Shown: positions 29,303 to 45,927 of the stretch, one piece after another
Numbering within the stretch: position 1 is the stretch's first letter
Layout: every line of letters begins with the position of its first letter
Source: Pseudomonadota bacterium
GTDB taxonomy: Bacteria > Pseudomonadota > Alphaproteobacteria > SHVP01
Assembly: GCA_022566715.1 (NCBI GenBank)
Contig: JADFIH010000004.1
Coordinates: 1 to 56,485 of the forward strand
DNA length: 56,485 nucleotides
Direction: 5' to 3'
The notes under the pieces: generated by a model
The model's input: the letters and a program-made list of their open reading frames with translations, nothing else
Databases searched by the model: none
What the model was told of the DNA's origin: nothing
Made by a program: the position numbers and the translations under genes

Positions 29303-30481
29303 CTATTTGTAGGGGTCGGCGGCGTCCCGCACGCCGTCGCCAAAGAAGTTCAACGCCAAAACGGTGACGATCACCGGAACGACGGGGAACATCAGCCAGG
29401 GATTGATGACCACGGCGTTGATATTTTGCGCCTCGTTCAAAAGCACGCCCCAGCTAGTGATCGGCGGGCGCAGCCCGAGTCCGAGGAAAGACAAGGCCGT
29501 CTCGGCCAAGATCATGGCCGGGATCGAGAGGGTGGCCGAAGCGATCAAGTGGCTCATGAAACTGGGCAGAAGGTGGCGGACGATGACGCGCTTGGGCGAG
29601 GCCCCAAGCAGCACTGCGGCCGTCGCGAAGTCCTCCTCGCGTAGCGCCAGCAACTTGGAGCGCACCGCTCTGGCGAGACCTGTCCAATCTATCAACCCGA
29701 GTATGATGGTGATGCCGAAGTAAATGAAAATCGGGCTCCAGGTCACGGGAAGCGCCGCCGACAGGGCCATCCAAAGGGGCAGTTCGGGGAACGAGCGAAT
29801 AACCTCGATGGTGCGCTGCACCGCGCTATCGACCCAACCGCCGTAGTAACCCGCGAGCCCGCCAAGGGTAATGCCCAGAAGGAAGCTGATCGTAATCCCG
29901 AAGAGGCCGACCGTCAGAGAGATGCGCGTGCCGTAGATGATGCGGGACAACATGTCGCGTCCCAGCCGGTCGGTGCCGAGCAGGAAGAGGGTGCCGCCCT
30001 CGGCCGGGCAGACCAGATGGAAGCTCGCGTCGAAAAGGCCCCAAAAGCGATACTGATCGCCGCGGCAAAAGAAGCGTATTTTCTGCACCTTCTCCATATT
30101 CGGCGTGTATTCGCGGCGCAAAAACTCCAGGTTGAGCTTGGAATCATAGCCGTAGACGAAGGGCCCTTTGAACTTACCCTCGTGGAAGAAGTGAACGGTT
30201 TGCGGCGGCGCCAGGATGTGCCGGCGGTCGCGCGTGGTGAGGTCATAAGGCGCCAGAAATTCACTGATCAGGATCGAGAAGTACAGCAGCAGGAGGATGG
30301 CGCCCGAGATGACGGCGATCCGATGATGCCGCAGCTTCCACCACATCATCTTCCACTGCGAGGCCATGAAGAAACGCTCCTGCTCGGGCGTTATGGCCTC
30401 CACCGAATAGGGATCGAAAGGCTCCTCGTTGACGAAGTGCTCGAGCGGCCGATCCCGGGGGTCGACGGGCCGCTCCGTCAC
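29303..30481 (-). CDS. Peptide-type ABC importer permease 2 (YejE/DppC-like)
   Basis: A 392-residue inner-membrane permease. One transmembrane helix (near AVISGAILLLLYFSILISEF) precedes an unusually long periplasmic insert of about 100 residues (residues 70-165), then the BPD_transp core with five helices. The EAA loop that docks the ATPase reads EEDFATAAVLLGASPKRVIV. GTG 30481 overlaps the upstream permease stop by four bases (GTGA), with GGAGG ten bases before. A longer frame to 31285 is only antiparallel shadow of that gene. Last gene of the eleven-gene minus-strand run. Confidence 0.92.
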   Translation of the reverse strand: MTERPVDPRDRPLEHFVNEEPFDPYSVEAITPEQERFFMASQWKMMWWKLRHHRIAVISGAILLLLYFSILISEFLAPYDLTTRDRRHILAPPQTVHFFHEGKFKGPFVYGYDSKLNLEFLRREYTPNMEKVQKIRFFCRGDQYRFWGLFDASFHLVCPAEGGTLFLLGTDRLGRDMLSRIIYGTRISLTVGLFGITISFLLGITLGGLAGYYGGWVDSAVQRTIEVIRSFPELPLWMALSAALPVTWSPIFIYFGITIILGLIDWTGLARAVRSKLLALREEDFATAAVLLGASPKRVIVRHLLPSFMSHLIASATLSIPAMILAETALSFLGLGLRPPITSWGVLLNEAQNINAVVINPWLMFPVVPVIVTVLALNFFGDGVRDAADPYK

Positions 30482-31503
30482 CGGGTCGTTCCTCCACCCA
30501 ACCGAATGCGCGGATCGAGCGCGGCGAGCGCGATGTCGGAAAGAAACATGCCGACGACGGTCAGCGCGGCGAGCGCCATGAGGAACGATCCCGCCAGGAA
30601 TTGATCCTGCGACTGCAGGGCTTGCAGGAGCATGGGCCCCGTCGTCGGCAACGAGAGAACCACCGACACGATCGCGGCGCCGGAAATGATTTGCGGCAAC
30701 AGGTTGCCGATGTCGGCGATGAAGGGGTTCAGCGACATGCGCAAGGGGTATTTGAGCAACAGCTTGAGGGGCGGCAGACCCTTGGCCCGTCCCGTCACGA
30801 CGTATTGCTTTTGCAACTCGTCGAGTAGGTTCGCGCGCAGGCGCCGGATCATTCCGGCCGTCCCGGAGGTGCCGATGACGACCACCGGGACCCATAGGTG
30901 GGCCAGTATGGACCCGGCTTTCGCCATACTCCACGGCGCATCGAGGTATTGCTCGTCCATCAGGCCGCCGATTTCGGTGCCGAACCAAAGATTGGCGAAA
31001 TAGAGCAGTACCAGGGCCAGCAGAAAGTTCGGCGTCGCAAGGCCGATGAAGCCGATGAAGGTCAGCGTGTGATCGCCCCAACTGTACTGATGCGTCGCCG
31101 AATAGACCCCGATGGGGAACGACACCAGCCAGGTGAAGATGATGGTCGTGAAGGACACGATGAATGTCAGCAACACCCGGTCGCCGACGACTTCGTTTAC
31201 GGGCAGGTCGAACTCGAAGGAATGACCCAGGTCGCCTTGCAACAATCCGGCGAATCCATCGGCTCCGGGCCACACCCCCAGCCATATGGCGTATTGCTCG
31301 ATCATCGGCTTATCCAGGCCGTATTGCGCACGGAGAAACGCGATCTTTTCGATCGCCGCGGTGTCGCCCTGGCTACGCAGCTCCGAGAGCTGGTTTGACA
31401 GGAAATCGCCCGGCGGCAGCTGGATAATGATGAAGACAATGATGCTGATCACCAACAGCGTTGGGATCATGATCAGAATCCGTTGGATGAGAAAATTGAA
31501 CAT
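30478..31503 (-). CDS. Peptide-type ABC importer permease 1 (YejB/DppB-like)
   Basis: A 341-residue permease of the oligopeptide/dipeptide type. The N-terminal helix MFNFLIQRILIMIPTLLVIS and the late helices around LSLPTTGPMLLQALQSQDQF are typical of DppB. The EAA motif reads QKQYVVTGRAKGLPPLKLLL. It pairs with the 29303 permease to form the membrane channel. It begins 26 bases after the binding-protein stop. Confidence 0.94.
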   Translation of the reverse strand: MFNFLIQRILIMIPTLLVISIIVFIIIQLPPGDFLSNQLSELRSQGDTAAIEKIAFLRAQYGLDKPMIEQYAIWLGVWPGADGFAGLLQGDLGHSFEFDLPVNEVVGDRVLLTFIVSFTTIIFTWLVSFPIGVYSATHQYSWGDHTLTFIGFIGLATPNFLLALVLLYFANLWFGTEIGGLMDEQYLDAPWSMAKAGSILAHLWVPVVVIGTSGTAGMIRRLRANLLDELQKQYVVTGRAKGLPPLKLLLKYPLRMSLNPFIADIGNLLPQIISGAAIVSVVLSLPTTGPMLLQALQSQDQFLAGSFLMALAALTVVGMFLSDIALAALDPRIRLGGGTTR

Positions 31504-31529
31504 GGCTGGTGTTGCGCCGCCGCGGGCCG

Positions 31530-33458
31530 CTAGTTAGCGGATTCGGCCCAGAAGAAAGTGTCGGGCCGGTACATGCCGAACTGTGCGCCCGGGTCCCAGT
31601 TATAGATGCCCTCGCGGGGCACGTTGCGCAAGCCATTGCGGACGACGATCGGTTGCAAGACTCCGGAAACGACTCCGATCGAAAGGACCTGGTCGGCGTG
31701 GATCGACAGCATCTTGCCCCAAACCTCGGTTCGCTCCTCGTCCGAGTCCGCGGCCAGCCATTGGCGGTGCAGTTCCTGTAGCTCGATGGCGGCGGGCATG
31801 TCGGGCGGCTCACCCAATTTGCCCCCGGTCTCGTAATATTGGCCCCATTTCGGCCATTGATAGCTGTGCTGCGACGTGGGCGCGAGCGCGACGGGATTGA
31901 AAGCGGCCGTGGGCACGCCGTTTTCGAAGCCCGTCCAGACCGAGATCTGCGTTTCGCCGGCGAAAATCCGATTGCGGAATACTTCCCGTTGCAGGGGCTT
32001 GGTGAACAGCTTGATGCCGATGGACGCCCAATCATCCTTGATTAGCTCGAGGATGTCGGTCTGTTCGGTATCTTCACCGGCGGTTTCGACGATGATGTTC
32101 ATTTCGCGGCCGTCCGGCAGAAGACGGACGTTCCTGCGGCCACGCTCGGTCAGACCCATTTCGTCGAGCAACTCGTTGGCGAGATCGATATCGAATTGCG
32201 CCCATTTGGTCTGATATTCCTCGCGAAACAGGGGGCTTTCGGGAAGCACCGTGTTGTTTCCGGGTATCGCCAATCCGAAGAAGATCGCCTCGTTGATGAG
32301 GTCGCGGTCGATCGCCAGCGACAGGGCGCGGCGGAAACGCGCGTCGCGCATGACCTTGCGCCAGACGGGGTCGTTGATATTGAGGTTGGGGAAAAGCGCG
32401 AAATGGGAACCCTTGGCTTCGCGCCAAAGGTAGGTCTCGAAATTATTTCGCTCCTGCGCCGCGCGCAGGAACGTGTAGTTGTTGAAGAAGATGCCGCGCG
32501 CCTGCAAGTCCACCTCGCCGGCGCCGGCCTTGGCCGGGATCAGCTGCGCCGTCGCCTGGCTCATAATGACGCGGTCGATGTAGGGCAACTGCCGCCCGTT
32601 CTCGTCCACCCGATGGAAGTAAGGGTTTCGCACGGCCTTGAAGCGCGTGGCGGGCGGCCTGGTGGTGTTCATCCAGGGCTGCAAGGTCGGCAGGCTCGGG
32701 TTGTTGAACCGGTACATGTTGTCCTGCCGGTTGTGCTGCGCCGCCCAATTGCGTGCGCGGCCGATGCGCTCCTCCAACTCCGCTTCCGTCGCGTAATCCG
32801 CGTGGTACTTCTTCAAGAAGTGCGCCGGCCGGTAGATGAACAAGGGCGACGCGCCGGCCAGCCGCGGCAGGAACCTCGGATTTATCGCGGGCCAAGTGTA
32901 ACGAACGGTGGTTTCGTCCACGACCTCGAAAACCGGCAGTTCTCCATTGACCAGCATATCGACCGGCGGTCCGGAGGGAGACAGGTTCGGGTTGTTGGCG
33001 ACGTCCTCCCACCAATAGCGGAAGTCCTCGCTCGTGAAGGGCACGCCGTCCGACCATTTGTGCCCCGGCCGAAGGTTAAGGGTGAAGATGCGTCCTTCCT
33101 CGACGTCGATGCTTTCCAGGATGTCCGGCACGAGTTCGAAGTTCTCATTGTAGCCAACCAGGCGGGCATATCCGTAAACCACCAACAGCCGTATGTCGCG
33201 AGGCCGCCCGATCAACATGCGCAGATCGCCCCCGTGCCGGCCGGCTTGGCGCTCTCCGCTCAGGGCCACGACGCTCGGCGTGGCCGGCAGCCGTTCGGCG
33301 ACCGGCGGTAGCCGGCCGGCTTTCACGGCGTCTTCGAACATGGGCGTTTCGATGAGGGTGAGCGCGGACGCCGTGGGCAAAAGGCCGGGCGTCGTCAGCA
33401 ACAGGAGCGTGGCAAAGACCGCCGCCGCCATACCAAACACGCGCATGAGCGGCTTCAT
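31530..33458 (-). CDS. ABC importer substrate-binding protein (SBP_bac_5 family)
   Basis: A 642-residue periplasmic binding protein of the peptide/nickel/oligosaccharide family. The signal peptide [20 protein letters not shown] ends near ASA at about residue 32. Family features include GHKWSDGVPFTSEDFRYWWE and DARFRRALSLAIDRDLINEA. At 642 residues it is longer than DppA/OppA and nearer to YejA. It overlaps the ATPase stop by four bases (ATGA at 33455-33458). The ligand may be a peptide or a glycan fragment, since the operon is full of glycan genes. Confidence 0.93.
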   Translation of the reverse strand: MKPLMRVFGMAAAVFATLLLLTTPGLLPTASALTLIETPMFEDAVKAGRLPPVAERLPATPSVVALSGERQAGRHGGDLRMLIGRPRDIRLLVVYGYARLVGYNENFELVPDILESIDVEEGRIFTLNLRPGHKWSDGVPFTSEDFRYWWEDVANNPNLSPSGPPVDMLVNGELPVFEVVDETTVRYTWPAINPRFLPRLAGASPLFIYRPAHFLKKYHADYATEAELEERIGRARNWAAQHNRQDNMYRFNNPSLPTLQPWMNTTRPPATRFKAVRNPYFHRVDENGRQLPYIDRVIMSQATAQLIPAKAGAGEVDLQARGIFFNNYTFLRAAQERNNFETYLWREAKGSHFALFPNLNINDPVWRKVMRDARFRRALSLAIDRDLINEAIFFGLAIPGNNTVLPESPLFREEYQTKWAQFDIDLANELLDEMGLTERGRRNVRLLPDGREMNIIVETAGEDTEQTDILELIKDDWASIGIKLFTKPLQREVFRNRIFAGETQISVWTGFENGVPTAAFNPVALAPTSQHSYQWPKWGQYYETGGKLGEPPDMPAAIELQELHRQWLAADSDEERTEVWGKMLSIHADQVLSIGVVSGVLQPIVVRNGLRNVPREGIYNWDPGAQFGMYRPDTFFWAESAN

Positions 33459-35344
33459 GTGCGTAACTCCTCGGGACCAACATTTCCGGTGGCACGAACG
33501 TAGTGGCCGCCGCCCAGATCAACCATATTGGACGCCTCGGCGCCGTTCAAGGCGAAGGGTTCGGGCCACGAGGCGGGGTCCGACGCTCGCCCTTCCCAAA
33601 GGGCGCCAAAATCGAGGGGTGAGTCCGGGTCCGGTTCCGGCACCGCGGCCAGAAGCGCTTTCGTGTACGGGTGTACGGGGTCACGGAAGAACTCCTTGCG
33701 CGAGGCGACCTCGACGATCCTGCCCGCGCACATGACGGCGATTCGGTCCGCGATGTAATCGACGACGGCCAAATTGTGAGAAATGAACAGGTATGTAAGC
33801 TGGAGCTGGTCCTGAAGGTCCTTCAGGAGATTGAGAATCTGTGCCTGGATCGATACGTCCAGGGCCGAGACCGGCTCGTCGCATATCAACAGGTCGGGTT
33901 GTAGGGCGAGGGCGCGGGCGATGCCGATGCGCTGCCGCTGTCCCCCCGAGAAACTGTGCGGGTAACGCCGAAGATTCCGCACGCTGAGGCCGACCAGGTT
34001 CATCAGTTCGCGAACGCGGTCTACCCGCTCTTCCTCCGCGCCGATCTTGTGGATGACCAAAGGCTCGCTGATGATGTCGAAAACCGTCATTCGCGGATTG
34101 AGCGAGCCAAAGGGATCCTGAAAGATGTACTGAGCGCGCTTCCGGTAGTTCGTGAGCTCGCGCTTGGTCATCGTCAGGACGTCGAGCTTCGTGCCGCGGT
34201 CGTTGAAGGTAATCTCGCCCGCGTCCGCCTGTAGGGCCCGCATGATCAATTTGCTGACCGTCGTTTTGCCACAGCCCGATTCGCCGACCAAGCCCAGACA
34301 TTCACCGCGCCCGATTTCAAAGCTGACGTCGTCGACGGCAAGTAAACCGCCCACGGGCCTGCCGCCGAACAGGGTACGTTTGCGCGACCAAAAGGTCTTC
34401 GATAGGGCCTTGACTTGGAGCAAGGGGCTACGCCGGTCGAGATCGTCGGGCCAGGGATCGCGCCGCAGCAGCAGCCCGCCCGGTTCCGCCTTGATTTCGC
34501 GAATGGGTACCAGCCTCTCATTGGGCTCCATATCGAATCGCGGCACGGCCTTGAGCAGGGCGACGAGGTAAGGATGCTTGGGATCCTTGAAGATATCGAA
34601 CAGGGTTCCTTGCTCCATCACCTTGCCCTGATAAAGAACGACGATCTCGTCGGCCATGTTGGCCACCACGCCGAGGTCGTGGGTGATCATCAGGATCGCC
34701 ATCCCAAGCTCACTCTGCAGTTCCCGCATCAGGCGCAGGATTTGAGCCTGAATCGTAACGTCGAGAGCCGTCGTGGGTTCGTCCGCGATCAGCAGGGCGG
34801 GGCGGCAAACCAGCGCCATTGCGATCATCACGCGTTGGCGCAGGCCCCCTGAAAGCTCGAAGGGGTAATTGGACAGAGCGGCTTTCGGGTTGGGATACCC
34901 GACAAGCCGCAACATCTCCTCGCTCGCCTCGTCGGCCTCCGCCTTGCCCACTTTTCGGTGCAGGCGGTAAGCCTCCCCGATCTGGTCGCCCACCGTGTGC
35001 AGCGGCGACAGGGACGTCATCGGCTCCTGGAAAATGATCGACATGCGGTGGCCGCGCAGGTTCCGCGCCTCCGGCCCGTCCCGGCGGAGTTTCACGATAT
35101 CGACAAAGGTCCCGGGCTTGTCGGGATCGAAAAAGATAATCTCGCCGTCCGTGATTCGGCCGGCCTTTGGGAGAATCCCCATGATGGATTGCGAAATGAC
35201 GGATTTGCCCGAACCCGATTCACCGACCAATGCAACCGTCTTTCCCCGGGGAATGCGAAACGAAACCCCGTCGACCGCCTGAATGCGTCCCTCGGGAGCT
35301 TGAAATTCGACCTTCAGATTGCGGACGAGAAGAACGTTGCTCAT
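33455..35344 (-). CDS. ABC importer ATPase, two fused NBDs (YejF-like)
   Basis: A 629-residue cytoplasmic ATPase with two complete nucleotide-binding domains. Domain 1 has GESGSGKS (41-48) and signature LSGGLRQR; domain 2 has GESGCGKT and FSGGQRQR. Both Walker B segments are intact ([18 protein letters not shown]), so unlike the exporter-like protein at 42258 this one should hydrolyse ATP. Each half ends with an oligopeptide/dipeptide transporter C-terminal motif ([24 protein letters not shown]). The fused layout resembles YejF of the YejABEF importer. Four-base overlaps join it to the genes on both sides. Confidence 0.95.
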
Positions 35345-35883
35345 GTGCGGCCGGCGACTTTGCTCTTCGTATTGGCGGCGGAGTCATCGGGAGGGTCGGC
35401 GTGCTGCTCGCCCAGTCCCATGGCTTTCAGGTTTGCCCGCGTGAGTGCGCTCAACTCGATTCCGTGTTGTGGGGCGAATTCCGTCGTCCGCCGGACGATG
35501 TGCTCAAACCCCTCGATCATGGATTCAATGCGCAGGGTATGGCGGCGGCCTTTCAAACGAAGATCCATCCAACCGCGTTCGCGGTCGCGCCGCGTCGAGT
35601 AGTAGCGCAGTCGGACGTCACGCAGGTCTTCCCAGGCAATCGTGGCGCCAAGCGGTCCGCTGTTCCGCACGCCCACATCCGATAACTCGATGACCGTCAT
35701 GTGGCGAAGCGCCGTCCGCAACCCAAAAACGAGGAAGAGAATAGTCAACGCGAGGAATATGAAAAAAACGATTACCGATATACTGCCGACGAAGAAGAGG
35801 GGGGTCGCCGACACGGCGAGGCCCAGTGCGGCCTTCAAGTCATCCTTCAAGAGGGTTTGGAGAGGGTAGCGGTGGCGGCTCAT
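35341..35883 (-). CDS. Small membrane protein with PH-like (bPH2) domain
   Basis: A 180-residue protein with two closely spaced membrane segments near residues 20-55 (LAVSATPLFFVGSISVIVFF and onward), then a soluble region. MTVIELSDVGVRNSGPLGAT, WEDLRDVRLRYYSTRRD and MDLRLKGRRHTLRIES look like the beta-strand pattern of bacterial pleckstrin-homology domains. The charged tail follows. Start and stop each overlap a neighbour by four bases, placing it between the deacetylase-like gene and the importer ATPase. Function unknown; possibly an accessory of the glycan or transport machinery. Confidence 0.75.
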   Translation of the reverse strand: MSRHRYPLQTLLKDDLKAALGLAVSATPLFFVGSISVIVFFIFLALTILFLVFGLRTALRHMTVIELSDVGVRNSGPLGATIAWEDLRDVRLRYYSTRRDRERGWMDLRLKGRRHTLRIESMIEGFEHIVRRTTEFAPQHGIELSALTRANLKAMGLGEQHADPPDDSAANTKSKVAGRT

Positions 35884-36671
35884 GCCACCAGATTAAAGAC
35901 TTCCGGCGCGGAGAGCCAGCAAACGCGCCGATTTTCGGCGGTTGCCGCGAACAGGCGAGCGAGGAACCCCCAGGCCGCTTCGTCCATGACCGCGTGGTGG
36001 GTCAAGAGACCCGTTGGACTTGACTCGCGGCGCAGCCGGCGGACGCGCAAACAATCGGACAATTGGGTTAGCGCCTCGGAATCCCCAATGAATCCGCGTG
36101 TGCCCCGCCAATCCACGATATCGAGATGGACGTCCGCGACGGCAAGGCTCGGGGCCACGGCTAGGCTCGGCTGGGGTTCAACCGGTTCGCGCGGCGCCTT
36201 GCGCGAGATGGCCCGCAAACCGAGTTGTGGCAAATGCGGATAAAGATTATCGGTCATGCGATTCCATGGGGGCACAAAGACGGGAACCGCGCGGCCACCA
36301 AACAGCGTGTGAACCTTTTCCCATGCAGCGGCGATCTCGGATTTCATTGCGGCGATGGGCCGGTCCGCGCCGAACTCGGCCTTCTTTTTACCGGCGGGCG
36401 CGTGGTTCAGGTGGCGGTAGCCATGGACGGCGGCGTGAACGTGGCTCGCGCCCTCAAGGCGCGCCGCCAGCGCGGCTTCGGCGGGGTCGGGAATAACGGC
36501 GAGGCAGAGCGGCAGCGCGGACTGGTCTTGCAACTCGAGTAAACGGTCTAGCTCCTGCGTCACGGCGGCCGCATCGTCATCGCGCCACCACAGGGTCGCG
36601 GCCATCCCCGCACGATCCCAGTCAGCGAGCTCTTGCTCGAAGCGCGCCCAGGCGCTGCCGTCGGCGTCCAT
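35880..36671 (-). CDS. Polysaccharide-deacetylase-like protein
   Basis: A 263-residue protein of the NodB/polysaccharide deacetylase superfamily. The metal-site segments are WWRDDDAA (residues 28-35) and HAAVHGYRHLNHAP, and FVPPWNRM is the substrate-groove motif. HAVMDEAAWGF near the C-terminus may supply the last catalytic histidine. No signal peptide, so it would act on a cytoplasmic lipid-linked or nucleotide-linked sugar rather than on periplasmic glycan. It lies 3 bases after the upstream glycosyltransferase stop and overlaps the PH-like gene by four. Confidence 0.82.
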   Translation of the reverse strand: MDADGSAWARFEQELADWDRAGMAATLWWRDDDAAAVTQELDRLLELQDQSALPLCLAVIPDPAEAALAARLEGASHVHAAVHGYRHLNHAPAGKKKAEFGADRPIAAMKSEIAAAWEKVHTLFGGRAVPVFVPPWNRMTDNLYPHLPQLGLRAISRKAPREPVEPQPSLAVAPSLAVADVHLDIVDWRGTRGFIGDSEALTQLSDCLRVRRLRRESSPTGLLTHHAVMDEAAWGFLARLFAATAENRRVCWLSAPEVFNLVA

Positions 36672-36674
36672 GCC

Positions 36675-37835
36675 TTACCAGTCCAGCGCGTCGGCCCACC
36701 CGCGCACCAGGTCCGCGGTCTTTTCCGCGCCCGCCGTGTCGAGCCCCGCGTTACTTGTGGGCGGCCCCGCGAGGGCGGCGTCGGCCGCGCGGGCAATCGC
36801 CCGGGGCGACAAATCATCCTCATTCACCACCTGGAACGCGCCAAGCTTGGCCATTTCGCGCGCCCGAAGGGTCTGCTCGGTTTCGATTCCGCCGGCATAG
36901 GGGACGATGACCGCCCGCGTACCGGCCTCCAGCACTTCCATCAGCGTATTGTAGCCACCCTGGCTGATCGACAGGCCGCAGTTCGCAAGCAGGGTGGTGA
37001 AGTCGGCGCGCGCGCGCTCCACCACGACGCCGCCGCCAGCAAGGGCCGCGACCTCACCGTATTCGGGCTCCGGCACGTTTACACCGACGAGGACCCGCCA
37101 GGTGCGGCCCGCGGCGGACGTCAATGGCCGGGCCTCGATCGCGTCGCGCAACAGGGTCAGCCCCACCGCGCCGCCGCCCGCGGACACGATGACCTCCCCG
37201 CGGCCCGTGGCCGAGTCGCCGCGGCTGCGTCCCGTGCGGTCGACGACGTAACCCGTGTAATTGATCTTGCCGGCGATCTCGCGCGCATGGGGAAAGGTTC
37301 GCTCGAAGGGGATGAAGTCGGGGTCGCCATGCACCAACACATGATCGAAATACCGATTCACGCGCGCCAGCATCTCCTCGTTACGCTCCGGCTTGTGCTG
37401 GGCCACCAGGATGTCCCGCACGGAGGAGGCGATGACCGGGCGCCGTTCGCGCGCGCTCGCCTCGTCGAGCAGGGGCAGAAGCTCGAAGCGCATCTGGCGC
37501 CGCCCGAAGGGGAAGAGCTCCACCAGGACGACGTGAGGGTCAGAGTCGCGGTAGGCGGCGAGGAGCGTTTCGCGGCGGCGTGCCTTCCAGGCCTCGTCGA
37601 TCGGCGCGCCGTGGTCATCCAGGAGTTTCTTGAAATGAAGATCGGCGGCGCGGGTGGCCGGAAGTTGAACGAACCGGGCGTCCGCGAAATCCACCCCGGG
37701 AATCTCGCCCCCGCCCGACGCGACGGTCACCGCCAGACCCCGCGCCGCCATGGCCCGCGTGATCGTCGCCGCCCGGCGCAGGTGGCCGATGCCAAGCAGG
37801 TGTTGCACGTAGAAGAAGACGCGCCGGCGGCTCAT
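36675..37835 (-). CDS. MurG/COG4671-like glycosyltransferase, second copy
   Basis: A 386-residue GT-B fold protein. The N-terminal loop QHLLGIGHLRRAATITRAMA matches the GLGHxxR signature of MurG-like enzymes, and the C-terminal donor-binding half has SQGGYNTLMEVLEAGTRAVI, followed by YAGGIETEQTLRAREMAKLG. It is homologous to the product at 40854-42158 in overall layout. Likely cytoplasmic or peripheral on the inner membrane, adding a sugar to a lipid or glycan acceptor. It overlaps the phosphatase stop by four bases. Confidence 0.87.
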   Translation of the reverse strand: MSRRRVFFYVQHLLGIGHLRRAATITRAMAARGLAVTVASGGGEIPGVDFADARFVQLPATRAADLHFKKLLDDHGAPIDEAWKARRRETLLAAYRDSDPHVVLVELFPFGRRQMRFELLPLLDEASARERRPVIASSVRDILVAQHKPERNEEMLARVNRYFDHVLVHGDPDFIPFERTFPHAREIAGKINYTGYVVDRTGRSRGDSATGRGEVIVSAGGGAVGLTLLRDAIEARPLTSAAGRTWRVLVGVNVPEPEYGEVAALAGGGVVVERARADFTTLLANCGLSISQGGYNTLMEVLEAGTRAVIVPYAGGIETEQTLRAREMAKLGAFQVVNEDDLSPRAIARAADAALAGPPTSNAGLDTAGAEKTADLVRGWADALDW

Positions 37836-38428
37836 GGCGAGGCCGCGCTCAGCGGAAGGTTCAATTCCTTGACACTAGGATGCCCGTCCGCGTCCAGGGT
37901 GAACAGGTGGGCGGCGCTGCGTTCGAACGTGCAGGGCGGCTCGCCGGTCATGTCCCAGTCGAGAGCGAGCGAGGTCAGGGCCCGGATGACGCCCAGATGG
38001 GTGACGGCGGCCACGGGTTCGCCGGCCCGCGCCACTTCGGCGAGCCACGGCGCGATGCGGTGGCGAACTTCGCGGGGCGACTCGCCGCCGGCCGGCCGGA
38101 AGTCGAGCCCCCGTGCTTCGTTGGCGGTGAACGCCGAACCGTGTTCCACCCGTAACTCGGCGAGGGTCCGGCCCTCCCATGCGGACCAGTTCATTTCGAT
38201 AAGTCTTGGTTCGATCTCGGGCGCGCGGCCGAACAGGAGAAGCGCGGTTTCGGTGGCGCGCGACAAGGGGCTGGCGACCACGCGCACACCCTCCAACATC
38301 TTGGGAACCCGCCAACGCGATACTTCGGCGCGCCCCTTTTCGCTCAGCGGAATATCCCGATGCCCCTGTGTGCGGCGCTGCTCGTTCCACGCCGTCGGGC
38401 CGTGCCGGATGAGCGCGACAAGGGTCAC
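37832..38428 (-). CDS. Histidine phosphatase family protein
   Basis: A 198-residue member of the phosphoglycerate-mutase-like phosphatases. RHGPTAWNEQRR at residues 8-19 contains the phosphohistidine H9; SPLSRATETALLLF supplies a second arginine, and VAAVTHLGVIRAL the second catalytic histidine. GTG 38428 overlaps the preceding glycosyltransferase stop by four bases. In this setting it may dephosphorylate a sugar phosphate or lipid-linked intermediate; alpha-ribazole phosphatase activity is an alternative but no cobalamin genes are near. The long frame up to 39334 is shadow. Confidence 0.9.
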   Translation of the reverse strand: MTLVALIRHGPTAWNEQRRTQGHRDIPLSEKGRAEVSRWRVPKMLEGVRVVASPLSRATETALLLFGRAPEIEPRLIEMNWSAWEGRTLAELRVEHGSAFTANEARGLDFRPAGGESPREVRHRIAPWLAEVARAGEPVAAVTHLGVIRALTSLALDWDMTGEPPCTFERSAAHLFTLDADGHPSVKELNLPLSAASP

Positions 38429-39621
38429 GGCGCCGTCCGCTGGCCGCCACGCCGATGATGGCGGGCCTGCGCGTGCTTCAGGGTCCGGGCCAGAATGCGC
38501 GCGGCATGCCCAACCGTCCTCTCGCTGGTGATGCGCGCTTGCCCCTGCGAACCCAATTTTCGGCGAAGCCGGCCATCTTGTAGAAGTTGCTCGACGAGAC
38601 GCGCCAGCGCCGCCGCGTCTTCCTCCGGCGCCAGCAGGCCGCCCACGCCGTCCTCCACTACGTCCGGGACGCCCCGAACGCGGCCCGCGACAACGGGTAT
38701 CCCGGCGGCTTGCGCTTCCAGCATCGCCATTCCATAAGCCTCGTGGACCGCCGGCCAGACATAGAGGTCGCTCGCCGCGTAGAGGCCGGGCAGGGTCTCG
38801 GGCGCGCACGCGCCGGCAAAGGACACCAACCCGCGCGAATCGGACTCGGAAGCGGACTCGAGCGGCTCGAGGGCCGCGTGAACCCGCGCCCGGACAGGTC
38901 CGTCGCCGACGATAAGAAGCCGCCACGGTGCGGCGCGGATGAAGCCCAAGGCCTTGGCCAGAAGCCGGTAAGACTCGAGTTTCGGGCCATCGCGCATCAT
39001 TGCGACCGCCAGTATCCAAGGCGCCTCCGGGTCGAGGCCGAATTCCGCCGCCACGGAGTGCCGGTGCGCCGCCCTGTTTTCGCATGCCGCCACGAAGGGC
39101 GCCGGATCGAGAAACGGCGGCAGGTAGACCATCCTCTCCGGGTCCGCCACCAGGGGCCCGACCATGGCCATGTCGGCCCGGGTCAGGTTGACCACGGCGT
39201 CCGCGGCGCGGATGGCCGCTTCCGTGGCGTCGTGCCCAAGGCCCCAAGGGCCGTTTGCCCGCTTCGGCGCGTGCGACGCCTCGGCGATGACATAGGGAAT
39301 GCCGAGTGCGCGGCTGATATGCGGGCCCAACCAATCGGGCGCCTTGTAGTAGACGTGATAGGTGAACCAGGCTTCGGGGCTGGGCAGTACCCCCGACTTG
39401 TATTGGGATACCAGCCGGGCGGCCTCGGCTTCGCCCGCGGCCCGGATATCCGCCTGGGTATCAGGCGCGGTCGCGGCGCAGAAGCTGCGAAACCCAGAGG
39501 CCACATCGACCTCATGCCCCGCCTGACGCAAGGCATCCAGCAGCAGACGGCCAACCCGGCGGTCGCCAGACGGCGTCTTATGCGAGGGCGTCTTGAGCGG
39601 CGCGTAAAAGGCAACGCGCAT
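38425..39621 (-). CDS. GT4-like glycosyltransferase (a)
   Basis: A 398-residue GT-B glycosyltransferase. The N-terminus MRVAFYAPLKTPSHKTPSGD is typical of GT4 acceptor domains, and the donor site E-x7-E reads EAYGMAMLEAQAAGIPVVAG. The C-terminal TSERTVGHAARILARTLKHA has the usual return helix. Start at 39621 is 6 bases after the next upstream gene's stop. Sugar donor unknown. Confidence 0.9.
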   Translation of the reverse strand: MRVAFYAPLKTPSHKTPSGDRRVGRLLLDALRQAGHEVDVASGFRSFCAATAPDTQADIRAAGEAEAARLVSQYKSGVLPSPEAWFTYHVYYKAPDWLGPHISRALGIPYVIAEASHAPKRANGPWGLGHDATEAAIRAADAVVNLTRADMAMVGPLVADPERMVYLPPFLDPAPFVAACENRAAHRHSVAAEFGLDPEAPWILAVAMMRDGPKLESYRLLAKALGFIRAAPWRLLIVGDGPVRARVHAALEPLESASESDSRGLVSFAGACAPETLPGLYAASDLYVWPAVHEAYGMAMLEAQAAGIPVVAGRVRGVPDVVEDGVGGLLAPEEDAAALARLVEQLLQDGRLRRKLGSQGQARITSERTVGHAARILARTLKHAQARHHRRGGQRTAP

Positions 39622-39627
39622 GCCTGC

Positions 39628-40857
39628 TCATTCCGCCGCCTGGCGGCGATCCAATCCGAACTTCGCCGCCAACTGATCGATACCGCGGCCCATGCCGTAT
39701 GACTGACGCACCCTTGCGGCGCCGGCCTGGCCGAACCGGGCGCGTTCCGACGGATCGCGAATGAGGGAGGCCAACGCCGCGGAGAGCGCATGCACGTCTC
39801 CAGGCGCGACGAGGCGCCCTGTTTTTCCATCCTCGATCAACTCGGGGATCGCGGAAACCCTGGTTGAAAGGCAGGCGAGTTCCTGGCTTTGCGCTTCCAT
39901 GAGCACGTTGGGGAGCCCATCGCGGTCGCCACTTTTGGCAATGCGGCTCGCCAACACAAAGATGTCGGCCTCGCGGTAGGCGGCCAGGACAACCCCCTGC
40001 GGCTGGGCGCCTCGCCATTCGATTCGCCCGCTCAGTCCAAGGCGGCGGGCCCGCGTCTTGAGGTCGCGGAGGCGTTCGCCACCGCCGATGTGAATAAACC
40101 GCCAATCGAGATCATCCGGCAGGTTTGCCAGCGCGCGGAGGAGGTCGTCATAGCCCTTTTTCTCGACCGCCCGGCCGACCGAAAGAATGACGACTTGCTC
40201 GCCCGCGCCGCGCGGCGGCCGCTTTGGCGGCACGGCGAAGCGCGCCATATCAAGCCCGTGGTAGACCAGATCGACCTTGTCCGGCGCACCCAGAGCGGCC
40301 AGGTGCTCGCGGTTCACCGCGGTACACGTGACGAGCCAGGCGCAGTCGGAAAGTTTTTCGCGCTTCTCCCATTCGGGCGTGGTCCAAACGTCCTTGGCGT
40401 GCGCCGACACGCTCCACGGCAGGTCACGCAGCATCGCGGCATAGCGGGTCACCGATGCCGGCGTATGCAGGAAATGGGCGTGAAGGTGCCTCACCTCCGC
40501 GCCGAGTTCATGCGCCAGCACCAGCGCCTGACCGAAGCGGCGGATTCGGTTGGAGGTCCGCTCGCGCCGAAGATCGCGCCACCAAACCGCGCGCGCGGCC
40601 CGGTAGGCCGGCCAGCGGCGCAGCGCCCGCCAGGCCCGCCAGACCCGGCGTGGCTGACGCCACAGATATTCCGGCAGGTAAAGAAGCGGCGCCTCGATTT
40701 CCGCGTGAACGGGGTGCCGCGCGCGGTCGGTGGGCTGGCGCAACGACACGATCAGGATGCGCAGGCCGCGCTCCTCCAGCGCCCTGATCTCCTGAGCGAT
40801 GAATGTCTCCGACAGCCTCGGGTAGCCTTTGAGAATGAAAGCGACTGTCCCTGTCAC
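39628..40857 (-). CDS. GT4-like glycosyltransferase (b), WcaL-like
   Basis: A 409-residue glycosyltransferase. AFILKGYPRLSETFIAQEIR at the N-terminus is the signature seen in colanic-acid-type WcaL enzymes, HLHAHFLHTPASV is the acceptor-side motif, and the donor site has DGLPNVLMEAQSQELACLST. The catalytic EX7E is represented by the glutamate in LMEAQ. It overlaps the upstream GT by four bases (40854-40857), consistent with translational coupling. It likely extends an exopolysaccharide or glycolipid. Confidence 0.91.
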   Translation of the reverse strand: MTGTVAFILKGYPRLSETFIAQEIRALEERGLRILIVSLRQPTDRARHPVHAEIEAPLLYLPEYLWRQPRRVWRAWRALRRWPAYRAARAVWWRDLRRERTSNRIRRFGQALVLAHELGAEVRHLHAHFLHTPASVTRYAAMLRDLPWSVSAHAKDVWTTPEWEKREKLSDCAWLVTCTAVNREHLAALGAPDKVDLVYHGLDMARFAVPPKRPPRGAGEQVVILSVGRAVEKKGYDDLLRALANLPDDLDWRFIHIGGGERLRDLKTRARRLGLSGRIEWRGAQPQGVVLAAYREADIFVLASRIAKSGDRDGLPNVLMEAQSQELACLSTRVSAIPELIEDGKTGRLVAPGDVHALSAALASLIRDPSERARFGQAGAARVRQSYGMGRGIDQLAAKFGLDRRQAAE

Positions 40858-42158
40858 GGACGCCTCTGGCCGAGGGCGGCCGCCGTTTCGACCGGGTCCT
40901 TCCGCCGTTCGATCCAGGGCTTGATGAGGCGGTCGAGGTTTTCCAGGCCCTCCAACAGGCCCGGCACCACCACTTCGGACGGCTTGGTCTGCCGCGGCAG
41001 ACGCCGCAACGCCGCGGCCATGACCTTGGGGTCCAGATCGTCTTGGTATTCAAGCATCTGCACCAAGCCCAGCTCCTGCGCCCGCGACGCACGAATGAAT
41101 TGCTCGCGCCGCGGCGCCGTACGCGGCAGGAGGATCGCCCGCTTGTCGAGCGAGAGAATCTCGCAAAAGGTATTGTAACCGCCCATGGCGATGACTCCCA
41201 CGGCGTCGGCCACCAGGCTCTCCATGTGGGTATCGAAGGTGATGGCCTCGACGCGCTTGAGCTTGGCCGCGCGGGCGCGGAAGTTCGCCTGAAGCTCGGG
41301 CTGCATGAACGGCCCGAGCACGAGCAACGCCGGATAGGGAAGCAAGGGATCGGTCTCGTAGGCCCGTAGAATCCACTCGATCAAGGCCTCGCCGTCACCG
41401 CCACCGCCCGTCGTCGCCAGCACGTACGGATTGCGGGTTATTTCCAATGGCGCCACGTCAGAACTCTGTGGGACGCTGCGCCGCAGATAGCCGGTATAGG
41501 TCAACTTTCGCAACACCGAATCCGGCATCTCGATCGACTCCAGCGGTTTGCAGATTTGCGGCAGACCGTAGACCCAGATCGCGTCGTAAAGATTCCGCAG
41601 CGCCGGCATGACGTTCTTGCGCTTCCATTCGGGCGCCAGGAGCTCGGGCGAATCCATGACGTCGCGCAGGCCCAGCACCAGATGCGAGCCGCGTTTTTTC
41701 AGCATGATCAGGGTCTCGTGGACCTCGCCCCGCAGGCCCAGCGGTTCCTTGTCGACGATGAACACGTGCGGGTCGAAAATTTCGGCCGTGTGTTTAATGA
41801 TGGACGACCGCATCGACAGGGTCTTCTCCAGGTCGATGTGCAGGTTCAGGGCCGTGTACTCACCGTTGCGCAGCTTGATGACGCCGGGGATTCGCACGAA
41901 GTCGACGCGCGCCCGGAAATCGAAGCTGCCGATGATGGGCGACCCGGAAAGGATCAAGACGGAGAGATTCTTATTCCGCTCCACGAGGGCGTGGGCAATC
42001 GTGCGGCAGCGCCGCAGATGTCCAAGGCCCATCGTGTCGTGACTGTAAATGAGGACGCGTGAACCGTCTTCGCCGCGCCCAGTGCCCATTTCGCCGCCCA
42101 TTACCGCGTTCATTTCGAATCTTCTGTCCGTCCCTAGAACCGGCGGAAATCGATTCAT
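40854..42158 (-). CDS. MurG/COG4671-like glycosyltransferase, first copy
   Basis: A 434-residue predicted glycosyltransferase and the first gene of the minus-strand run. YSHDTMGLGHLRRCRTIAHA carries the GLGHxRR loop, and MGGYNTFCEILSLDKRAILL then PRTAPRREQFIRASRAQELG form the nucleotide-sugar half. The start is uncertain: ATG 42158, 42113 and nearby codons are all in frame, and the conserved part begins at about residue 35. A 99-base divergent region separates it from the ABC-exporter-like gene, where promoters for both directions must lie. Confidence 0.87.
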   Translation of the reverse strand: MNRFPPVLGTDRRFEMNAVMGGEMGTGRGEDGSRVLIYSHDTMGLGHLRRCRTIAHALVERNKNLSVLILSGSPIIGSFDFRARVDFVRIPGVIKLRNGEYTALNLHIDLEKTLSMRSSIIKHTAEIFDPHVFIVDKEPLGLRGEVHETLIMLKKRGSHLVLGLRDVMDSPELLAPEWKRKNVMPALRNLYDAIWVYGLPQICKPLESIEMPDSVLRKLTYTGYLRRSVPQSSDVAPLEITRNPYVLATTGGGGDGEALIEWILRAYETDPLLPYPALLVLGPFMQPELQANFRARAAKLKRVEAITFDTHMESLVADAVGVIAMGGYNTFCEILSLDKRAILLPRTAPRREQFIRASRAQELGLVQMLEYQDDLDPKVMAAALRRLPRQTKPSEVVVPGLLEGLENLDRLIKPWIERRKDPVETAAALGQRRP

Positions 42159-42257
42159 TTTTATGCTTGATCGGATTGTGGATAGATTCGAGGATAAAGG
42201 TCAAGAGAAACGCCAGATTATGAAGAGGGCCGCACGGTTTAATTTAAGGCGACCGCG

Positions 42258-44915
42258 ATGGAATCAAGTATTTTCAAATATATACGGCGCTATAGCCTTC
42301 GCCAGCAGATCTGGATAGTTATCGTCTCGGGCGCTTCATTTCCGTTTCTCTATCTGTTCTATGAATTGCCCAAGAGGATCGTCAATGACGCGATCCTTTC
42401 CGATCCCGAGCGCTTTCCGGTCGAGTTGTTTGGTCTGGAGCTAGGCCACTTCACTTTCCTGTTCGCCTTGTGCGGGGTGTTCCTGATCCTCGTCGTGATC
42501 AATCAGGGGTTCAAGTATTACATCAATCTTTTCAAAGGTTTAACCGGAGAGCGGATGCTCCGCCGGCTGCGCTTCGACCTCTACTCCCGGGTTTTGCGCT
42601 TTCCGTTGCCGACCTTCCGCAACATGTCCCAGGGCGAAATCATTCCCATGATTACGGCCGAAGTGGAGCCGCTCGGCGGCTTCATTGGCGACGCCTATGC
42701 CCAGCCCGCCTTCCAGGGCGGGCAACTTCTTGTGATTATTGCCTTCCTGTTTGTCGCCAATCCGATCATGGCGGGCGCGGCGGTGGCGCTCTATCCGCTG
42801 CAGGTTTACGTCATCCCGAAGCTGCAACGCCGGGTGAACCTGTTGGGTAAGGAGCGGGTTCGGTTGGTGCGAAAACTGTCGGATCGCATCGGCGAAACCG
42901 TGCAGGGCGTGCAGGAGGTGCACGTCCACGACACGTCCCGGTTGGAACGCGCCGACTTCTCCATCCGGCTCGGCGAGATCTTCGAGGTTCGCTACAAGAT
43001 CTACCGTCAGAAATTCGTCATCAAGTTCATCAATAACTTCATCCAGCAACTGGGGCCGTTCTTTTTCTATTCTCTGGGCGGGTTCCTGGTGATCAGCGAG
43101 TCGCTTGACATCGGAACGTTGTTGGCGTCCATCGCCGCCCACAAGGATTTGGCGGCGCCGTGGAAACAGCTTCTGAACTACTACCAAATCAGCGCCGACT
43201 CGCGAATTAAGTACGAGAATGTCGTTTCGCAATTCGAGCCGGCCGGCATGCACGATTCAAGCCTACAGGACACGGAACCCGAGCAGATAACGCCCCTGAC
43301 GGGCGAGGTTGCGACCTTCAACCTGACGCTTAACGACGACCAAGATGTCCCCGTCGTCGACGGTGTCAATTTGAAATTCAGCCTGGACCAGAGCGTCGCC
43401 GTCGTTGGCGCCGGGGGACCGGGCCGCGACAACTTGATGCTGTTGCTCGCACGGCTTTTGGACCCGCACGGCGGCCGCGTGACCGTGGGCGGACAGGATA
43501 CCATCGGCCTACCCGAAGCGATCACCGGGCGGCGCATGTCGTTCGTCGGGTCCGCCGGGTACGTCTTCGCCGCGACAATCGCCAGCAATCTTTACTACGG
43601 GCTTAAGCACCGTCAAATCGGTCCAAATCCCGACGATGAGGCGGCGACCGAGCACAAACAAAAAACCGCGGAATCACTGCGGTCGGGCAACAGCACCGAT
43701 GATTTTTTTGGGGATTGGGTGGACCTGGCCGGGGCCGGGCTCGCGAACACCGCGGAGCTCGACCGGAAGGCGTTCAGGGTTCTCGACCTCGTGGAGTTTA
43801 GGGACGACGTTTACCGGTTCGGCTTGCGCGGCACGTTCGATCCGGGCAAGGAACCGGAGCGCGCCGAAGCCATCATGAAGGCGCGCGAGGCGCTGCGGGT
43901 TCGGGCAAAGGCCGACCCTGGCATCGCCGCGTTGATCGAGACCTTCGACCGTACGAAGTACAACGCCAACGCGACCATGGCGGAAAACCTTCTATTCGGG
44001 AACGCCATCGGTGATGTGTTCAAGATGGACCGTTTGGCAGAAAACGACTACGTCCGATCCGTCCTGAAAAAGGCCGGTCTTACGGACACGATCCTTCAGG
44101 TTGGTTTCCAGGTCGCCGCGACCATGATCGAGTTGTTCGCCGATCTTCCGCCCGATCACGAAATTTTCCAGCAATTCAGCTTTATCAGCGCGGATGAACT
44201 CTCGGAATTTCAAGCCATACTGAGCCGCGCGGACAAGGATCACCCAGAGACGTTGTCGTCCGACGACCGGTCGAAGTTACTCTCCTTGCCCTTCCTCATC
44301 ATTCCGGCGCGCCATCGTCTCGGCCTGATTACGGACGATCTGCAGGCCCAAATTCTCAAGGCGCGCGAAATCTTCGCCGCCGACTTGCCGGACGATCTGC
44401 GCGCCGCGGTGGAGTTTTACGAGCCCGACCGGTATATCAGCGCCGCCAATATCCAGGACAACATTCTGTTCGGGAAGATATCGCACGGCGAAGCCCATGC
44501 GGCGGACAATGTCGGTCAGCTCATCTCCGAGGTCATCCGCGACCTGAGCCTAAGCGACGAGATTGTCCGCGTGGGTCTTGACTACCATGTCGGTGTCGGC
44601 GGCGCCCGGCTGACGCCTGCCCAGCGGCAGAAGCTGGTCCTCGCCCGCTCCCTGATCAAACAGCCGGATCTACTCCTGATATCAGAGGGATTAAACACGC
44701 TGGACGCGGCGGCCCAATCTCGGATCATGGAAAATCTCCTTGAGGAGTATGATGGGCGGGCGCTCGTCTGGTCGCTGCAGCGGCCCGAGCTCGCCGAGGC
44801 GTTCGATCGGGTGATCGTGATGGAAGGGGGCAAAGTCAAGGAACAGGGTACGTTCGCCGAATTAAAGGGGGCGGGAAACCTGCTTGCCGGACTCGTCGCC
44901 GAAAGGGTTGCGTAA
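42258..44915 (+). CDS. ABC-exporter-like protein with degenerate, internally triplicated ATPase domain
   Basis: An 885-residue protein. Residues 1-330 are an ABC exporter transmembrane domain with about six helices (for example FTFLFALCGVFLILVVINQ). The ATPase half is degenerate: Walker A reads GAGGPGRD (384-391, lysine to arginine), the Q-loop glutamine is absent at VGSAGYVF, the signature is LTPAQ (785-789), Walker B is LLLISE (805-810, aspartate to serine) and the H-loop is SLQRPE. The Q-loop-following segment occurs three times: TIASNLYYG (440), ATMAENLLFG (572) and ANIQDNILFG (730), each followed by a helix ending near VGL. It is the first gene of a plus-strand unit. ATP hydrolysis is doubtful. 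Confidence 0.93.
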   Translation: MESSIFKYIRRYSLRQQIWIVIVSGASFPFLYLFYELPKRIVNDAILSDPERFPVELFGLELGHFTFLFALCGVFLILVVINQGFKYYINLFKGLTGERMLRRLRFDLYSRVLRFPLPTFRNMSQGEIIPMITAEVEPLGGFIGDAYAQPAFQGGQLLVIIAFLFVANPIMAGAAVALYPLQVYVIPKLQRRVNLLGKERVRLVRKLSDRIGETVQGVQEVHVHDTSRLERADFSIRLGEIFEVRYKIYRQKFVIKFINNFIQQLGPFFFYSLGGFLVISESLDIGTLLASIAAHKDLAAPWKQLLNYYQISADSRIKYENVVSQFEPAGMHDSSLQDTEPEQITPLTGEVATFNLTLNDDQDVPVVDGVNLKFSLDQSVAVVGAGGPGRDNLMLLLARLLDPHGGRVTVGGQDTIGLPEAITGRRMSFVGSAGYVFAATIASNLYYGLKHRQIGPNPDDEAATEHKQKTAESLRSGNSTDDFFGDWVDLAGAGLANTAELDRKAFRVLDLVEFRDDVYRFGLRGTFDPGKEPERAEAIMKAREALRVRAKADPGIAALIETFDRTKYNANATMAENLLFGNAIGDVFKMDRLAENDYVRSVLKKAGLTDTILQVGFQVAATMIELFADLPPDHEIFQQFSFISADELSEFQAILSRADKDHPETLSSDDRSKLLSLPFLIIPARHRLGLITDDLQAQILKAREIFAADLPDDLRAAVEFYEPDRYISAANIQDNILFGKISHGEAHAADNVGQLISEVIRDLSLSDEIVRVGLDYHVGVGGARLTPAQRQKLVLARSLIKQPDLLLISEGLNTLDAAAQSRIMENLLEEYDGRALVWSLQRPELAEAFDRVIVMEGGKVKEQGTFAELKGAGNLLAGLVAERVA

Positions 44916-44924
44916 GGAGACTCC

Positions 44925-45383
44925 ATGAGCCTGAACGAAGAAGTAGAGATTCTGCGCAACATTCCATTGTTCGCGAACATCGAACCGTCGAAGCTGAAGC
45001 TTCTGGCTTTCACATCGGAGCGCCTGACCTTCCGCAAAGGACAGGACCTGTGCGTGCAGGGTGAAATGGGGGACGCCGCTTTTATCATCATCGACGGCGC
45101 GGTCGACGTTCTTGTCAACACGGATGACGGTCCGCTTTCGGTCGCGAAGATGGGCAAGAACGATGTGGTTGGTGAAATCTCTATTTTGACCGACGTTCCA
45201 CGGACCGCGACGGTCCGTGCGACCAGCGACGTAACGGTGCTTCGCATTTCGAAGGACCTGTTCCTGCGTCTGATGCGGGAGTTCCCGCAGATGGCGGTCG
45301 AAATAATGCGCGAGCTGGCGCGCCGTCTCGACAAGACGACCGCCGATCTGACGCGCGCGCTCGCCGCGGACGGTTCCAACTGA
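44925..45383 (+). CDS. Stand-alone cyclic-nucleotide-binding domain protein
   Basis: A 152-residue protein consisting only of a cNMP-binding (CAP-type) beta-roll. The phosphate-binding cassette VVGEISILTDVPRTATVRA has the conserved GE (83-84) and RTA (93-95), so it should be able to bind cAMP, cGMP or a related nucleotide. There is no DNA-binding helix-turn-helix. It begins nine bases after the stop of the ABC-like gene, with AAGGAGAC as ribosome-binding site, suggesting that it acts with that transporter-like protein as a separate regulatory subunit. Confidence 0.92.
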   Translation: MSLNEEVEILRNIPLFANIEPSKLKLLAFTSERLTFRKGQDLCVQGEMGDAAFIIIDGAVDVLVNTDDGPLSVAKMGKNDVVGEISILTDVPRTATVRATSDVTVLRISKDLFLRLMREFPQMAVEIMRELARRLDKTTADLTRALAADGSN

Positions 45384-45438
45384 CCGGGAGCCAGGACGCC
45401 CACGGGCCAAGGCGCTACCAGGCCGGGCGTTAGCGGAA

Positions 45439-45927
45439 ATGAGCCGCCTCGATAGCGCGATCCGCCGCCTCGTTGCGCAACGCAGCTGCCTGGACATGGC
45501 CGCCGGCCTCATTCGTGATGTGCCGGGTCCGGTTCTCGAACTGGGTCTTGGCAATGGCCGGACCTACGACCATTTACGCACCTTGTTTCCGGAGCGCGGG
45601 ATTTTTGTTTTTGACCGCCGAGTCGCGGCGCACCCTGACTGCATTCCCGATGATACCCACATGATCATCGGCGATGTGATGCAGACGCTTCCCGGCGCCC
45701 TGAGCCGCATCGGCACCCGCGCCGCGATGGTGCACAGTGATATCGGTAGCGGTGACAAGGCCGAGAGCCGGCGCCAGGCCGGCGCGTTGGTGCGGTTGCT
45801 CGGGCCGTTGCTGGCGCCCGGCGCTATTGTGGTCAGCGATCAAGACATGGCGATGGCGGGCTGGCCGGAGGTGGCGCTGCCCGAAGGGATCGCGCCCCGC
45901 CGCTATTACTTGTACCGCCTCCCGTGA
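45439..45927 (+). CDS. Small class I SAM-dependent methyltransferase
   Basis: A 162-residue protein with motif I VLELGLGNGRTYDHL (about residues 32-46) and later FVFDRRVAAHPDC and VHSDIGSGDKAESRR, a compact SAM-methyltransferase core. It ends in PRRYYLYRLP. It is the third gene of the plus-strand unit, 55 bases after the cNMP protein. Likely substrate: a glycan or lipid intermediate of the locus, by context only. It converges on the unknown gene at 45968, with hairpin A between them. Confidence 0.83.
   Translation: MSRLDSAIRRLVAQRSCLDMAAGLIRDVPGPVLELGLGNGRTYDHLRTLFPERGIFVFDRRVAAHPDCIPDDTHMIIGDVMQTLPGALSRIGTRAAMVHSDIGSGDKAESRRQAGALVRLLGPLLAPGAIVVSDQDMAMAGWPEVALPEGIAPRRYYLYRLP

Follow-up and report, generated by a model that had tools for sequence, protein, structure and literature searches.

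A class-wide alphaproteobacterial family of ABC-exporter-like proteins with an eroded, partly triplicated nucleotide-binding domain and a linked cNMP-binding partner

The open reading frame at positions 42,258-44,915 (+) of the window, a 56,485-nucleotide stretch of an alphaproteobacterial contig (JADFIH010000004.1), encodes one half of a type IV ABC exporter whose nucleotide-binding domain (NBD) is split by about 276 residues. It belongs to a family that joins this architecture to a partial triplication of the NBD, family-wide erosion of the catalytic residues, linkage or fusion to a cNMP-binding domain and co-occurrence with a glycosyltransferase gene. We propose, with a probability of about 0.5, that these proteins are ABC-fold permeases that carry a glycan of the cell envelope, have given up or reduced ATP turnover and are now gated by the cNMP-binding subunit, a mechanism that we infer from the features described below.

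The reading frame and its coordinates were verified, and the product is 885 residues long. Pfam detects ABC_membrane at residues 65-292 (2.5e-18) and a split match to ABC_tran (3.4e-8), i.e., a transmembrane domain (TMD) followed by an NBD on one chain, the arrangement that defines the type IV exporter fold. An AlphaFold2 model made from 27 sequences (pLDDT 85.3, pTM 0.79) matched ABCB1, TmrAB and MsbA in Foldseek at a probability of 1.0. The closest curated profile is that of MsbA, TIGR02203, against which the protein scores 158.3 bits and falls short of the cut-off of 602, a threshold that canonical alphaproteobacterial exporters likewise score just under. The TMD (residues 1-330; 42,258-43,247, +), as delimited by Pfam, the model and the family alignment, is more conserved than any other part of the family, with a mean entropy of 1.46 bits. 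Within it, the aligned stretch at about residues 217-231 (42,906-42,950, +) would, from exporter topology, correspond to coupling helix 2 in ICL2. The N-terminal lobe of the NBD (residues 350-430; 43,305-43,547, +) carries a degenerate Walker A motif, VGAGGPGRD (383-391). The domain is broken after the Q-loop helix, at about residue 449, and resumes at about residue 725, where a Q-loop-like segment appears for the second time and continues into the signature region. Its C-terminal lobe (residues 778-870; 44,589-44,867, +) contains the signature LTPAQRQK (785-792), the Walker B motif LLLISE (S809 and E810), the D-loop D816 and Q841 at the H-loop position.

Three segments of the protein share the same order of elements. 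Copy 1 (residues 425-526; 43,530-43,835, +) runs from a strand through the Q-loop position and TIASNLYYG (440-448) to a helix ending in VYRFGLRG, has its own internal extra stretch at 451-497, and aligns in hhalign with positions 79-103 (Prob 94) of a canonical NBD profile built from 21 canonical alphaproteobacterial exporters. Copy 2 (residues 533-616; 43,854-44,105, +) comprises a helix bearing KARE (541-544), ATMAENLLFG (572-581) and a helix ending in ILQVG; copy 3 (residues 691-777; 44,328-44,588, +) comprises a helix bearing KARE (701-704), ANIQDNILFG (730-739) and a helix ending in VRVG, and runs on into the signature. Copy 2 aligns in hhalign with copy 3 (Prob 98.5, E 2.5e-15), and copy 3 aligns with positions 73-148 of the canonical NBD, through LSGGQ (Prob 94.6). 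The leading helix with KARE, a motif which the initial annotation of this DNA had rightly noticed in both places, is an extra element common to copies 2 and 3.

That annotation, made from the sequence alone, had described an ABC-like protein with an NBD segment present three times, and family profiles bear this out: comparison of copies 2 and 3 gave 88.1 (maximum of 150 column shuffles, 20.7), of copies 1 and 2, 36.4 (column-shuffle maximum, 20.9), and of copies 1 and 3, 37.3 (column-shuffle maximum, 23.6). The self-comparison that it recommended recovers the likeness of copies 2 and 3 from the single sequence (score 80; maximum of 200 shuffles, 53); copy 1 shows no significant likeness to either by single-sequence alignment, and is connected to them only by the profiles. 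The pattern [IM]xxN[LI]xxG occurs three times in the protein and three or more times in 1 of 5000 shuffles, a figure that is a rough guide because the pattern was composed after the motifs were seen. Copies 1 and 3 align with the same 25-residue stretch of Q-loop and helix in the canonical exporter NBD, while copy 2 matches the canonical profile weakly (27.3; control maximum, 21.8). The canonical segment is thus confidently present twice, and the third occurrence follows from the likeness of copy 2 to copy 3.

The repeat unit is a strand and Q-loop, an ENxxFG helix and a helix ending in VG. It lacks the signature: the internal duplication proposed at the outset holds as a partial duplication of the NBD, with copies 1 and 3 on the same canonical stretch, and its description as a helical subdomain was imprecise. 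The proposed pairing of ISADELSE (643-650) with ISEGLNTLD (808-816) does not form part of the repeat, since copies 2 and 3, when compared as profiles, align no further than just past the VG, and the former lies in or beside a predicted helix whereas the latter is the Walker B strand.

The insertion between the copies (residues 450-725; 43,605-44,432, +) has no Pfam match in the segments tested. It includes a conserved helical linker domain of no known fold (residues 617-690; 44,106-44,327, +) with the consensus VAxTMVELFADLPPxHEFF...LPFxLIPARHRLG. A search of the PDB by sequence found no relative of the insertion, and a search of the PDB by fold found no match for residues 527-700 (best E 2.5), which when predicted in isolation give a pLDDT of 94.3. 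A known domain is ruled out by these Pfam and PDB searches. This confident fold without a solved-structure match marks most of residues 527-700 as a new helical domain, the repeat unit being the sole part that derives from the ABC fold. A partial NBD duplication set within a new helical domain thus makes up the insertion, and the concern raised beforehand, that it might be an unrelated domain, proved half correct.

The catalytic motifs of the window protein are altered throughout, as had been reported initially for the Walker A lysine, Q-loop, signature, Walker B aspartate and H-loop. Its Walker A sequence, GAGGPGRD, departs from GxxGxGK[ST] by R390 in place of Lys and D391 in place of Ser/Thr; the Q-loop Gln is replaced by S432; the signature LSGGQ has become LTPAQ (785-789); S809 replaces the Walker B Asp, leaving SE where an Asp followed by the catalytic Glu is expected; and the H-loop His is Q841. 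The catalytic-Glu position, E810, and the D-loop D816 are retained.

We checked seven core residues in 93 sequences, namely the window protein and 92 orthologues. The Walker A Lys is found in 46/93 (Arg in 35), the Mg-coordinating Ser/Thr in 7/93 (Glu/Asp in 69), the Q-loop Gln in 23/93, the second Gly of the signature in 13/93, the Walker B Asp in 13/93 (absent in 80/93; Asn in 45, Ser in 19), Glu at the catalytic position in 50/93 and the H-loop His in 24/93. The D-loop Asp is present in 85/93, and the signature Gln is mostly retained. None of the 93 sequences has all seven core residues: the maximum is five, and the window protein has one. The Lys, Ser/Thr, Asp and Glu occur jointly in two. 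On a tree of the TMD columns, the Lys, Gln and Glu positions each change state at least 17 times and the His position at least 15 times, counts that do not separate gain from loss; which catalytic residues went missing differs between lineages. This mosaic indicates that constraint on catalysis has been relaxed in a gene that is otherwise strongly constrained. Sporadic loss in one genome is ruled out by the 93 sequences, and homologues with intact motifs, which had been named as grounds for dismissing the changes, are absent from this set. The initial view of the protein as non-hydrolysing would fit these residues. The Walker A Lys and the catalytic Glu each survive in roughly half of the orthologues, so ATP binding or slow hydrolysis may persist in some members.

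Orthologues were detected in 148 of 387 sampled alphaproteobacterial genomes and in 23 of 60 relatives. The search for homologues with the same insertion, which had been suggested as a check, found it in every one of the 92 orthologues that were aligned to the window protein; among 398 genomes of the phylum its occurrence was confined to the Alphaproteobacteria. In dozens of families the orthologues remain open over their full length of 880-1,050 aa, and their insertion holds invariant residues. Searching the 398 genomes with the TMD (E<=1e-20) returned full-length family members and TMD-only proteins, and no intact close relative of canonical length. A further 345 plasmid records, mostly rhizobial, contain matches, some of them to the TMD only. 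Direct orthologues that share both architecture and gene neighbourhood are present on Rhizobium etli p42e (RHE_RS24195) and R. johnstonii pRL11 (RL_RS29995). The rhizobial orthologues are annotated as 'ABC transporter ATP-binding protein', and we found no functional study of them among the papers searched, locus-tag searches included, with tags guessed from replicon position. The orthologue on pSymB of S. meliloti 1021 (L067:9944-12710) is divided between two reading frames, while the match is unbroken in several other strains of the species.

The gene that follows starts 9 nt past the ABC stop and encodes a stand-alone cNMP-binding-domain protein of 152 residues (44,925-45,383, +; PF00027, 3.4e-20), whose phosphate-binding cassette, VGEISILTDVPRTATV, is intact. 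A cNMP gene is near the ABC gene in 75/92 loci, and 15 orthologues carry the domain as a C-terminal fusion to the ABC protein. The cassette Arg is conserved in 76/76 stand-alone and 15/15 fused domains, and the Glu/Asp in 75/76 stand-alone ones. At the sequence level the family thus has what is expected of a cNMP-regulated transporter, a linked cNMP domain with a ligand-competent-looking cassette. Cyclase genes are not constant neighbours, being near only about 12/92 loci. By these residues, the nucleotide-sensing module is conserved and the ATPase module is not.

The TMD also occurs alone. TMD-only relatives of 380-500 aa, with about 40% identity to residues 1-330, retain the family signatures ELPKxIVN, EVEPxGGF and KDxxxPxKEL. 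Those on roseobacter plasmids (L065:7773-9266, L066:7773-9077 and L070:7758-9020) lie beside copper-binding, plastocyanin-like and cytochrome c genes, and further ones are present in other genomes. Alignment shows that the ICL2 coupling stretch is kept in the full-length forms and lost, either shortened or scrambled, in the TMD-only relatives; its retention in full-length members suggests that the eroded NBD still docks on the TMD. A remoter alphaproteobacterial TMD-only group of 320-380 aa shows 26-32% identity (L191:6413-7444, L192:6276-7298 and L193:5927-6922), and in the proteins of loci L181 (3434-6022) to L185 the same degenerate NBD with its insertion follows a TMD whose divergence prevents alignment with that of the window protein.

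Glycosyltransferases, a phosphatase, a deacetylase-like gene and an importer lie upstream of the ABC gene and divergent from it. Its immediate divergent neighbour encodes the GT28-C-type glycosyltransferase GT28b (40,854-42,158, -; PF04101). Beyond it are two GT4-type glycosyltransferases (39,628-40,857, -, in 63/92 loci; 38,425-39,621, -, in 57/92 loci), a histidine phosphatase (37,832-38,450, -, start approximate; PF00300, 1.4e-38), the GT28-C-type glycosyltransferase GT28a (36,675-37,835, -, in 58/92 loci), a polysaccharide-deacetylase-like protein with a weak DUF2334 match (35,880-36,671, -, in 47/92 loci), whose Mesorhizobium homologue is annotated as a polysaccharide deacetylase, and an Opp-type importer made up of two permeases, a family 5 SBP and a fused double-NBD ATPase (29,303-35,344, -). 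A 180-aa protein without a Pfam match (35,341-35,883, -) is encoded beside the importer ATPase in 43/92 loci. Past the cNMP gene lies a Methyltransf_17 SAM methyltransferase (45,439-45,927, +; PF12692, 1.3e-55), which 41/92 loci have close to the ABC gene.

The whole importer-glycosyltransferase-ABC-cNMP region (window positions 29,303-45,927) is a cluster conserved across the class. The same gene set is found class-wide in varying order and also on Rhizobium and Mesorhizobium replicons, which brings to light a sizeable glycan gene cluster conserved among rhizobia and other Alphaproteobacteria; the literature searched gave no description of its product. When GT28b is missing from the vicinity of the ABC gene, the genome encodes it elsewhere in 22/25 cases, against 0/20 genomes without the ABC family at the same threshold, a difference that genome size may explain in part because the ABC-absent group takes in several small genomes. 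The ABC gene and GT28b very probably serve one process. In S. meliloti, smb20804 and smb20805 affect capsular polysaccharide (PMC5539429); these genes may lie nearby on pSymB.

In the mechanism that we propose, the ABC protein would form one half of a permease, probably a homodimer. Its NBD would dock on the TMD yet no longer act as a normal ATPase, since several residues for Mg-ATP coordination or hydrolysis are lost in each lineage. The partial NBD duplication and the new helical domain would enlarge the region that meets the TMD coupling helices in ordinary exporters, and could provide an extra docking or regulatory surface for the NBD. The cNMP protein, whether encoded next door or fused at the C-terminus, would respond to a cyclic nucleotide or a comparable ligand by gating the permease. 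Genomic context makes a glycan or glycolipid built by the adjacent glycosyltransferases the most likely cargo, and transport might be driven by the proton motive force, a gradient or weak ATP turnover. A stricter version can be held only tentatively: here every site would be without ATP hydrolysis, the NBD would have been rebuilt as a regulatory module and a cyclic-nucleotide subunit would gate a glycan permease, making the family a living intermediate between full ABC exporters and NBD-less secondary transporters, with the TMD-only relatives as forms in which the loss is complete.

The residue counts could also describe a slow ATP-powered glycan or lipid flippase, like MsbA or PglK, with a divergent active site and an expanded subdomain that offsets the lost residues. 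The catalytic Glu (50/93) and Walker A Lys (46/93), the mostly kept signature Gln and D-loop Asp, the retained docking stretch, the neighbouring glycosyltransferases and the position of MsbA as closest curated profile, though far under its cut-off (158 against 602 bits), all agree with such a flippase. We nevertheless consider it unlikely, as the Mg-coordinating Ser/Thr has mostly become Glu/Asp, the Walker B Asp is lost in 80/93, the Q-loop Gln and the His are gone in about three quarters, and the losses differ by lineage. It is distinctly unlikely that the protein transports nothing and is a membrane scaffold or receptor which organises glycosyltransferases and reports ligand binding via the cNMP protein: the lost catalytic residues, enlarged helical surface and co-occurrence with the glycosyltransferase cluster are what this would predict, but conservation is strongest in the TMD rather than in the NBD, and the existence of TMD-only relatives on copper-resistance plasmids suggests that the TMD is the working part. 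The scaffold-like role put forward in the initial annotation is one of several options; a regulated permease is the one indicated by the cNMP partner, the glycan cluster and the TMD-only relatives.

We give little credence to the protein being the degenerate half of a heterodimer whose intact half-exporter is encoded elsewhere, as in TmrAB or TM287/288. Among exporters, a degenerate site typically accompanies a canonical one in a heterodimeric or full-length transporter (PMC7756269), and further half-exporters, of canonical type, are encoded in the window's genome. However, another half-exporter is found in the examined flanks at only 1/92 loci, so a linked intact partner is rejected, and degradation of both Walker A and signature in one chain would give such a dimer two mixed sites. 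Gene decay, with the changes as drift under relaxed selection, is very improbable: varying catalytic residues and the split S. meliloti 1021 copy are in keeping with it, and it is contradicted by class-wide conservation, including the long open frames (880-1,050 aa), the invariant insertion residues and the conserved synteny and partner.

The best sequence and structure matches of the window protein are exporters of the MsbA, ABCB1 and TmrAB fold, with which it shares a six-helix TMD followed by an NBD, as well as Q-loop/helix and signature segments that remain recognisable by profile; it differs from them by the 276-residue insertion with two extra partial copies and by belonging to a family with the full catalytic set in 0/93 sequences. 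To our knowledge, known degenerate ABC exporters retain one working ATP site. A review describes degenerate-site transporters as having one degenerate and one canonical site (PMC7756269). Walker B or catalytic residues have likewise been lost in TM287/288, TmrAB, MsRv1273c/72c and the ABCC family, which are conserved and presumably functional (PMC7756269), whereas in a homodimer of the window family all sites would be degenerate, with no linked intact partner. In SbmA/BacA of the SLiPT family, an ABC-type TMD works without an NBD on a proton gradient (PMC13316013). These proteins, marked by a glutamate ladder, lack both the NBD and the coupling helices, and the TMD-only relatives likewise lack the ICL2 stretch; the window protein, in contrast, keeps its eroded NBD and this stretch, and so departs from the SLiPT architecture. 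The peptidase-containing ABC exporter HetC requires its cNMP domain, which is reported to bind ppGpp rather than cAMP, and an ATPase catalytic residue is also essential (PMC10986499). Unlike HetC, with its C39 peptidase and dependence on that residue, the window family has its cNMP domain at the C-terminus or in a separate gene and a degenerate ATPase. The family mixes features of degenerate-site exporters, SbmA/BacA and HetC, and by the criteria tested is a member of none. With no intact site, a partly tripled NBD segment, a cNMP partner of ligand-competent appearance and TMD-only cousins, it would make testable both whether a trigger other than ATP can gate the ABC fold and how ABC transporters became NBD-less secondary transporters such as SbmA.
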